Of a DNA stretch of 54,089 nucleotides, positions 38,857-41,152 are shown piece after piece. Each line of letters begins with the position of its first letter. The stretch's first letter is position 1. Location: contig JAPOOU010000144.1 in the NCBI GenBank assembly GCA_026713245.1, forward strand, positions 1-54,089, written 5' to 3'. The notes beneath the pieces are model-generated. The model did not search any database. It was not told where the DNA came from and worked only from the letters and a program-made list of their open reading frames with translations. The DNA comes from Chloroflexota bacterium (GTDB taxonomy: Bacteria > Chloroflexota > Anaerolineae > Aggregatilineales > Phototrophicaceae). The position numbers and the translations under genes were made by a program.

Positions 38857-39588
38857 ATGGCGATACGCGGTGACACGGCAGGCACAGAAAAGCGCTACGT
38901 GCTGGATATGCTGCCGGCTCAATGCAATCGCATTCTGGAAATCGGTTGCGGCGACGGACGTCTGACCTGGCAGTATGCCGAGTTGGCTGATTCGATTGTC
39001 GCTATCGACGTGACACCCGATACCTTGGCAGAAGCTTTACGGGAGCGGCCGGAGCGATTCCGCGAATCGATAAGCATCCTGGAAGCGAGTGGCGTTCATC
39101 TGCCCTTCAAATCCGACAGTTTCGATCATGCGCTTTTTTCCTTATCCCTGTGATGAATTGAGCCAGAGGGCATGGTCCATGCCCTGGAAGAGACGCGCCG
39201 GGTGCTGCGGGAGGGGGGCAGCTTTCTTGACCTGCGCCCAGCCAGCAAGAATCGGCGGGTTGAACTTGAAGTCTCCGGCGCGCGCTTCCACATTGGCGAG
39301 ATCGATTCCTCCGCTACATTTGCCGATCAGTGGGCGGCCGACGCGGCTCTGGAGATCTTGCTGGATCAGGGCCTGATCGCGCCAGAGCACGATGCGCAAT
39401 TCCTGGTGACCACCGACCTGGACAGCGTCGAAGACTTGCGCGCCTATGCGGCGACATTGCGTCGCAGCGTCATGGCGGAGGAATTGCCGGAGCGCATCGA
39501 GTCGCTAATAGCCGGGGAAGCCCAGGACATCCTCATCCACACCCGCCGGGAGATGATAATCAGAAGGTATCGCTGCCTGGAACCTTGA
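38857..39588 (+). CDS. class I SAM-methyltransferase with two adjacent in-frame UGA codons (candidate UU selenoprotein, otherwise pseudogene)
   Basis: ORFs 38857-39153 and 39172-39588 are in the same frame; read through TGA TGA gives ...RILEIGCGDGRLTWQYAELADSIVAIDVTPD...FDHALFSLSL-UU-IEPEGMVHALEETRRVLREGGSFLDLRP..., a continuous methyltransferase fold. Confidence 0.6.
39163..39187 (+). promoter_or_regulatory. SECIS-like hairpin CCA-GA-GGGCATG-GTC-CATGCCC-TGG
   Basis: 7 bp perfect stem (39168-39174 / 39178-39184) plus 3 bp outer stem across a GA bulge; apical GGUCC/GUC; loop begins 18 and 21 nt after the two UGA codons. Confidence 0.5.
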
Positions 39589-39886
39589 AACTCGCCGCGC
39601 GTCGGCCGGGACTTTGGACAGAATTCCGAACACTCGCGATGCAGTCGCTTCGCATTATTCTGTTGAGACTACTTTAATTTGAATTTCTCGGGACGTGGAT
39701 TCTTAGTTGGCGCGGTCGGTTTGCAGGGCGGTATCAATGGAGGCGCGCGGCATATCATGTTGCCTGCGATCAACGACAGACCGCTGAGATAATTCTACTT
39801 GCCCAGCGAAAAGAATTTGTTACACTCGGAGCTACGGCGTCCTGTCGTGAATTGACCTGTTGAAGATTCAGTTGTTGGAGGACTCT

Positions 39887-41152
39887 ATGTTCCGCAAATT
39901 GGCTTTATTGTCACTGGTTTTTGCACTTGTAGGAGTTCTGATCGCGCCGGTCGCGGCGCAGGACGAAATCGTATTTGGCGTTGTTTTGGTGGGTCCGAAT
40001 GACGATCGGGGTTGGAGTACCTCGCATTATGAAGCCGGGCTCTATGTCGAAGAGAATATGCCCGGCGCCACAATGCTCTTCTTCGAGAGTTTGAATCCGG
40101 CGGATTCGCCGGAAACCACGTTGATGGACGTGGTTGAGTTCATGGTCGACGAGAAAGCATCGGTCATTTTCACCACCTCGGACAGCTTTGAAGAAGATAC
40201 CAACGTGGTGGCGGCCGCCTTCCCCGATGTCACCTTCATCAACATCACCGGTAGTAACGCGATCGCAGGCAGTTCGGTTGCCGAGGGCGAACATGCCATC
40301 ATGCATGAACTGCCGGAAATGGCGCCGGCCAATGTCGGCAACTTCAACGTGTATATGGAATTGCCGCGCTTGATCGCCGGTTGCGCCGCGGCGCTGACCA
40401 GTGAGAGCGGCAGCATCGGTTATCTGGGCGCGCTGATCAATCCCGAGACGCGTCGTCTGGCGGCGTCCAGCTATTTGGGCGCGCGCTACTGCGCGGACAA
40501 CTACCGCGATGACATGTCCGCCGACGACATCAGCTTCGAGGTAGTTTGGATCGGTTTCTGGTTCAATATCCCGGGCGTGACGCTGGACCCGACCGAGGTG
40601 GCGACCGGCTTCCTCGACGGCGGCGCCGATGTCATCATCTCCGGCATTGACACCACCGAGGCGATCACGGTCGCTGGCCAGTACATGGCCGAGGGCGATA
40701 CCAGCTACGGCGTGCCCTACGGCAATGTCAACGGCTGTTCCGAAGCGCCGGACGCCTGCCTGGGCGCGGCATACTACAATTGGGGTCCTGCCTATCTCGA
40801 TGTTGTCAAGCGCGTCGCCGATGGCAGTTGGTCGCAGGAATGGCTGTGGCTGGAGCCGAAGTGGGACGAGATCAATGATGACGGCCTTTATACCGATGGC
40901 GATACCAGCGTCGCCGGATACAAATTCGGAAACGCCTTGAGTATGGAAACGATTGAGAGCCTGCAGGCCTTCGCCCAAGAGATCCATGACTTCCAGACCG
41001 ACCCCATGCATTCCGGCGAGATGTTCTTGTGGAGCGGACCGCTGAACTTGCAAGACGGCACGGAATTGGCCGGCGACGGCGAAGCTGTGACCTTGCTGGA
41101 TATCTGGTTCGTCCCGCAATTGCTGGAAGGCATGGTCGGCGCAAGCGAATAG
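39887..41152 (+). CDS. BMP-family ABC transporter substrate-binding protein
   Basis: IVFGVVLVGPNDDRGWSTSHYEAGLYVEENMPGATM; VIFTTSDSFEEDTNVVAAAFPDVTFINITG; GYLGALINPETRR. Confidence 0.85.
   Translation: MFRKLALLSLVFALVGVLIAPVAAQDEIVFGVVLVGPNDDRGWSTSHYEAGLYVEENMPGATMLFFESLNPADSPETTLMDVVEFMVDEKASVIFTTSDSFEEDTNVVAAAFPDVTFINITGSNAIAGSSVAEGEHAIMHELPEMAPANVGNFNVYMELPRLIAGCAAALTSESGSIGYLGALINPETRRLAASSYLGARYCADNYRDDMSADDISFEVVWIGFWFNIPGVTLDPTEVATGFLDGGADVIISGIDTTEAITVAGQYMAEGDTSYGVPYGNVNGCSEAPDACLGAAYYNWGPAYLDVVKRVADGSWSQEWLWLEPKWDEINDDGLYTDGDTSVAGYKFGNALSMETIESLQAFAQEIHDFQTDPMHSGEMFLWSGPLNLQDGTELAGDGEAVTLLDIWFVPQLLEGMVGASE

Follow-up and report, generated by a model that had tools for sequence, protein, structure and literature searches.

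A methyltransferase gene with tandem in-frame TGA codons

The window analyzed here is the whole 54,089-nucleotide stretch of DNA from a Chloroflexota bacterium (contig JAPOOU010000144.1). On its forward strand, read-through translation of positions 38857-39588 yields one open frame that is interrupted solely by TGA TGA at 39151-39156. From 38857 on, no stop other than these tandem codons precedes the terminal TGA of the methyltransferase gene at 39586-39588. The first-pass annotation had described two ORFs in one frame split by TGA TGA, and its coordinates and frame are confirmed: ORF 38857-39153 and ORF 39172-39588 share a frame, and the ATG at 39172 is an internal Met codon within a hairpin rather than a start codon. 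The features are as follows.

38857-39588, + strand: class I SAM-dependent methyltransferase gene, 243 amino acids, with two internal codons assigned to selenocysteine (Sec) (read-through translation; Pfam match across the TGAs; equal-length orthologues).
38932-38970, + strand: motif I (ILEIGCGDGRLTW), the SAM-binding loop (G30, G32, G34, and R35 invariant among diverse members).
39151-39153, + strand: first TGA, predicted Sec residue 99 (TGA in 77 and Cys, as TGT, in 2 of the 79 distinct family sequences; Cys in five Actinomycetota members).
39154-39156, + strand: second TGA, predicted Sec residue 100 (TGA in 67 and Cys, as TGT or TGC, in 12 of these 79 sequences).
39168-39184, + strand: putative SECIS-type hairpin GGGCAU-GGUCC-AUGCCC, common to both UGAs (pairing, compensatory changes, bSECIS criteria).
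39172-39588, + strand: 3' half of the methyltransferase gene, mechanically a separate ORF (same frame; dN/dS like that of the upstream part).

The encoded protein qualifies as a class I SAM-dependent methyltransferase by its Methyltransf_25/Methyltransf_11 domain, its motif I, and its class I fold. Specifically, the domain match reaches 59 bits (Pfam gathering thresholds 27 and 21.2) and covers residues 26-123, spanning the TGAs. Pairwise dN/dS is 0.09-0.26 upstream of the TGAs and 0.13-0.25 downstream, values from which purifying selection is inferred to act on both sides of the tandem codons.

The gene neighborhood was compared between families, and no conserved neighbor was found. With nothing in common between families, we read the neighborhoods as inherited synteny that does not indicate the substrate. 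Downstream, at 39860-41152, lies a gene for a PnrA-like ABC substrate-binding protein (Bmp, PF02608) with no permease genes next to it, and such a protein follows the methyltransferase in 17 of the genus neighborhoods that were fetched. In another family (locus L128), a Bmp-type ABC transporter gene set is found nearby. Members of family f9 have a uracil phosphoribosyltransferase-like gene (recognized by eye, without a profile) and a zinc alcohol dehydrogenase gene upstream. Separately, the window encodes a ParE-like toxin (PF05016; 42953-43478, - strand) with a small overlapping upstream ORF, likely a toxin-antitoxin pair.

Family distribution and exchange of TGA for cysteine codons

The gene is present in 32 of 34 genomes of the genus, at 47-88% identity to the source copy, with exactly two in-frame TGAs in each case. 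Its orthologues match the source protein in length. TGATGA occupies identical codons in all 33 genus loci read out, a set that includes some genomes represented in two collections. The genus consensus around the pair is [LW]S[FL]-UU-I-xxx-GMV(H)AL. No intact UGA-free copy was found among these close relatives. Two genomes of the same genus (G009 and G013), both of which keep selB and are fairly contiguous assemblies, lack the family gene, which is thus dispensable or lost there.

A first profile was built on the genus, further members were found in the phylum, and a second profile (A2) was built from 15 diverse members. Applied to 400 Chloroflexota genomes, A2 yields 52 full-length matches scoring 142-338 bits. 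They come from 47 genomes, which represent 10 families, and each contains one or two TGAs. Scores are sharply bimodal. Below the family, one frameshifted copy aside, only partial, generic, TGA-free matches of at most 76 bits remain, and no full-length TGA-free match is listed in these 400 genomes. Those TGA-free matches that were examined are generic methyltransferases. The frameshifted copy (G087) lies in two pieces scoring 81 and 85 bits; no other member that was read out is clearly disrupted. Of 347 Actinomycetota genomes sampled, 7 contain a family member, always with a TGA. Searches of plasmids (tblastn) and of viral contigs (scan) returned only partial, low-identity methyltransferase matches.

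From the window alone, the two TGAs might be taken for pseudogene mutations or for a sequencing or assembly error, given that they split one ORF in two. Comparison among genus genomes and families rejects this reading, and we accord it a negligible chance. Both TGAs recur at the same codons in 32 genus genomes of considerable divergence and across the 10 families, dozens of independent assemblies agree on them, and dN/dS lies well below 1 on either side.

Where a TGA is replaced, the substitute is Cys. The 79 distinct Chloroflexota sequences comprise 65 with TGATGA, 12 with TGA-Cys, and 2 with Cys-TGA, so that Cys occurs at either UGA position, a point that the first-pass annotation had proposed to check. 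Among the Actinomycetota members, Cys-Sec occurs five times, Sec-Cys once, and Sec-Sec once. Cys-Sec, which prevails there with a hairpin of the same kind, is the reverse of the Sec-Cys order that is commoner in Chloroflexota. On a tree of 69 rows, at least 10 state changes among UU, UC, and CU are required, and well-supported branches make at least 6 separate occurrences of UC unavoidable. A Cys-Cys homologue was sought in the 400 Chloroflexota and 347 Actinomycetota genomes and none was found. Copy number also varies: five genomes carry two family copies each. In one genome (G447), one copy is Sec-Sec, and the other is diverged and Cys-Sec.

The downstream hairpin and the predicted decoding of both UGAs

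Just past the TGAs, CCA (39163-39165), GGGCATG (39168-39174), a GTC loop (39175-39177), CATGCCC (39178-39184), and TGG (39185-39187) form a hairpin whose loop starts 18 and 21 nt past the two TGAs (17 and 20 nt if the loop is taken as 5 nt). These coordinates, the pairing, and the spacing agree with the first-pass annotation. The perfect 7-bp stem described there is not conserved in full. There are homologues with G at the position of C39178, so the conserved element is a 6-bp stem (39168-39173 with 39179-39184) capped by a 5-nt GGUNN apex.

Because the hairpin always lies equally far from the TGAs, the 79 sequences can be aligned without gaps. Across them, the 6-bp stem is paired in 99.6% of cells, compared to a mean of 96.1% in shuffles, none of which (0 of 1000) is as high. 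Sliding the stem register by 1-3 bases reduces pairing to 24-56%. In a set of 34 diverse sequences, pairing is 99.0% versus 93.1% when shuffled (0 of 500). Changes on both sides of a pair occupy 15 cells of this set versus a shuffled mean of 2.9 (0 of 500), and double changes are found in five of the six pairs. The exchange of GGC...GCC for AGC...GCT exemplifies the pattern: a Gly-to-Ser change is matched by its partner base, nearly always through a silent change in an Ala codon, with one sequence excepted. Stems that have been wholly rewritten still pair (AGUGUC...GACACU and GGACGU...ACGUCC). Within the genus, synonymous variation is zero at the stem codons E104 (GAG), H108 (CAT), and A109 (GCC, 30 of 30); at other Ala positions of the gene, GCG predominates, and synonymous variation returns outside the stem.

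The folding energy is unexceptional (z = -0.72; MFE -12.7 to -13.3 kcal/mol). Thus, it is conservation and covariation, not stability, that mark the hairpin as more than chance, and from these substitution patterns we conclude that its structure is maintained in evolution. The published bSECIS model calls for an apical loop of 3-9 nt with G in the first two loop positions, an upper stem of 4-16 bp, a UGA-to-loop spacing of 16-37 nt, and an MFE of -7.5 kcal/mol or lower (PMC13188914). All four bSECIS criteria are met, with a 5-nt (or 3-nt) loop reading GGUCC (or GUC), a stem of 6-7 bp, and conforming spacing and MFE.

The source assembly (4.87 Mb, 300 contigs) encodes the complete Sec machinery, that is, all four of selA, selB, selC, and selD. 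In profile searches, selB exceeds its curated cut-off, and selA and selD exceed theirs. The selD gene is of the Sec type, with its own in-frame TGA after LATCAG, and the tRNA-Sec scores 75.6 bits (gathering score, 47). An Rfam search of the selB locus gave no match, and a simple fold at the selD UGA of this genome revealed no obviously similar hairpin. Co-occurrence of the machinery with the family gene adds little, since selA is frequent in the phylum: it is found in 321 of 400 genomes in the whole sample and in 45 of the 47 family-bearing Chloroflexota genomes. In two genomes that possess the TGA-containing gene, the searches detected no selA and no selB; both are fragmented MAGs, of 220 and 890 contigs.

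The genomic criteria for a bacterial selenoprotein are satisfied: the UGA is conserved in orthologues, Cys occupies the position in homologues, and SelA, SelB, SelD, and tRNA-Sec are encoded in the genome. Comparison thereby establishes, at the genomic level, a read-through gene with conserved TGAs, Sec/Cys exchange, a covarying hairpin, purifying selection on two sides, and a complete machinery. We hold with high confidence that both tandem UGAs are decoded as Sec, placing residues 99 and 100 side by side, a prediction for which there are no protein-level data. The proposal that both UGAs specify Sec was already made in the first-pass annotation and now has support from conservation, exchange, covariation, and machinery. 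Of the four grounds for refutation listed there, three were put to comparison (missing selB/selC, no Cys in homologues, and an intact UGA-free orthologue in close relatives), and none of the three holds. On this reading, SelB and tRNA-Sec would decode both codons, directed by the single SECIS hairpin downstream.

Could the UGAs instead be read as another residue, such as Trp, or be passed by general read-through? The frame is indeed open across the TGAs. However, the substitutes at both positions are Cys codons (TGT or TGC) and never TGG, on which ground we reject decoding as Trp. The methyltransferase gene itself terminates in TGA, and the full Sec machinery and the covarying SECIS also speak against any such reading. 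We regard any such non-Sec reading as highly improbable.

A further possibility is that only one UGA is efficiently decoded as Sec. The second would then act mainly as a brake, or a mixture of full-length protein and 98/99-residue products would arise, with a regulatory role under selenium limitation. In vivo UGA recoding in E. coli has been reported to be 30-40% efficient (PMC4513850). On that figure, two UGAs in a row should be decoded poorly unless the hairpin is unusually effective. The U-C and C-U forms likewise imply that a single Sec is enough in some lineages. Nonetheless, UU far outnumbers the other states and does not vary among the 32 genus genomes; a second UGA that was costly and redundant would not be kept in this way. 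We consider inefficient decoding of one UGA unlikely and retain the assignment of Sec at both positions.

The dyad in the fold, its possible roles, and known systems

A structure model of the source protein (mean pLDDT 86) adopts the class I methyltransferase fold, with low confidence around the Sec loop (block mean 72). It places the Sec pair between strand 89-94 and helix 103-116. RebM, AtmM, and TleD are among its best fold matches. In a HMMER alignment, the Sec pair falls opposite RebM His140-His141, which we presume to be catalytic, a role that our literature search did not retrieve; the Cys-His of TleD also aligns with the pair. In class I methyltransferases, the loop after beta-4 usually contacts the acceptor. 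From the model and alignment, we infer that the Sec-Sec dyad resides in this loop (motif IV), where it would occupy the position of the RebM-type His-His and face the acceptor next to the methyl group of SAM. The suggestion in the first-pass annotation that the two Sec residues replace a Cys-Cys pair remains undemonstrated: no Cys-Cys homologue was found in the genomes sampled, and generic Chloroflexota relatives have H-H (4), C-F (2), C-S (1), or other residues at the pair position.

The function of the dyad can only be inferred, and the metal, metalloid, or thiol methylation suggested in the first-pass annotation likewise has the standing of an inference. We favor a role of the two selenols as soft ligands or nucleophiles, a preference that amounts to slightly less than half of our belief among functional models; acid-base catalysis or a redox switch ranks only a little lower. 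The two selenols would hold or activate a thiophilic acceptor (a metalloid, a metal, or a thiol or selenol compound) for methylation; alternatively, the dyad would provide acid-base catalysis or a diselenide redox switch.

In one specific form of the ligand idea, the dyad is the metalloid-, metal-, or thiol-binding pair of an ArsM-like detoxifying or volatilizing methyltransferase. In its favor, a vicinal selenol pair is a soft ligand, arsenite is the substrate of several selenoprotein methyltransferases already known (PMC13188914), and some family members are weakly similar to ArsM models. Yet the fused ArsM models score far below cut-off, and no arsenic or mercury genes were recognized near the gene. 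Nor does the family have an invariant cysteine outside the dyad; ArsM uses further Cys residues. We view this proposal as credible, with its chances somewhat under even. Alternatively, the dyad could take the RebM-type His-His role as base or nucleophile, or it could form a diselenide or selenylsulfide redox switch. Here, the exact alignment with RebM H140/H141 and with the H-H of relatives is suggestive, and retention of at least one Sec in every case suits both uses. Against these roles, a selenol is a weak base, and there is no structural or biochemical evidence for either. These roles, too, are tenable and fall modestly below an even prospect.

Beyond the favored ligand role, we tentatively entertain, just short of an even bet, a broader picture. 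Specifically, these selenoenzymes would form a widespread and apparently obligate family. An adjacent Sec-Sec would replace a catalytic His-His and perform chemistry beyond the reach of an all-Cys enzyme, in line with the lack of a Cys-Cys form in the sampled genomes, and one short SECIS would serve two UGAs.

With respect to known families, no NCBIfam model (June 2026) reaches its cut-off for the source protein. A review table from 2026, which covers 119 families and subfamilies of prokaryotic selenoproteins, lists Sec methyltransferases with UxxG and CxxU motifs, and the adjacent Sec-Sec motif is absent from it. On these comparisons, the proteins constitute a new selenoprotein methyltransferase family with a predicted adjacent Sec-Sec dyad, a prior description of which is not fully excluded. 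A selenoprotein family is thus added, across Chloroflexota and parts of Actinomycetota, whose gene a standard-code reading splits into two ORFs.

The nearest analogs each differ from the family. MduS (NF045649) is likewise a class I methyltransferase domain with two Sec residues. However, its motif is CxxU rather than UU, its model length is 338 rather than about 243 amino acids, and the source protein scores a weak 32 bits against a cut-off of 380, so identity with MduS is rejected. The Sec arsenite methyltransferases (NF041536, NF041537, and NF008823) and the methyltransferase/UXPK-star family (NF047649) also combine class I methyltransferase domains with Sec. Their motif is UxxG, and three of the four have fused domains, of which there are none here. 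ArsM identity is rejected on scores of approximately 24-26 bits against cut-offs of 460-575 (three fused models) and on the lack of invariant Cys residues other than the dyad. The best NCBIfam match is CpaM, the corrinoid protein-associated methyltransferase (NF043040), which all 15 of the diverse members match. CpaM identity is rejected at 58.5 bits versus a cut-off of 180, and no corrinoid gene was recognized nearby.

The putative SECIS resembles that of E. coli fdhF: in both, a short hairpin closely follows the UGA, its apex contains GGU, and the spacing is similar. It differs in serving two adjacent UGAs, in its stem, and in having no bulged U. The family raises the question of how a single short hairpin could suffice for SelB to decode two successive UGAs. 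Finally, RebM, AtmM, and TleD (3bus, 6uv6, and 5gm1) have the same fold, and the aligned RebM and TleD residues occupy the place of the Sec pair. Unlike the family described here, they have no Sec, and they act on natural products, for example indolocarbazoles or teleocidin. This comparison raises the question of what makes vicinal selenols necessary in a methyltransferase when its relatives manage with histidines.
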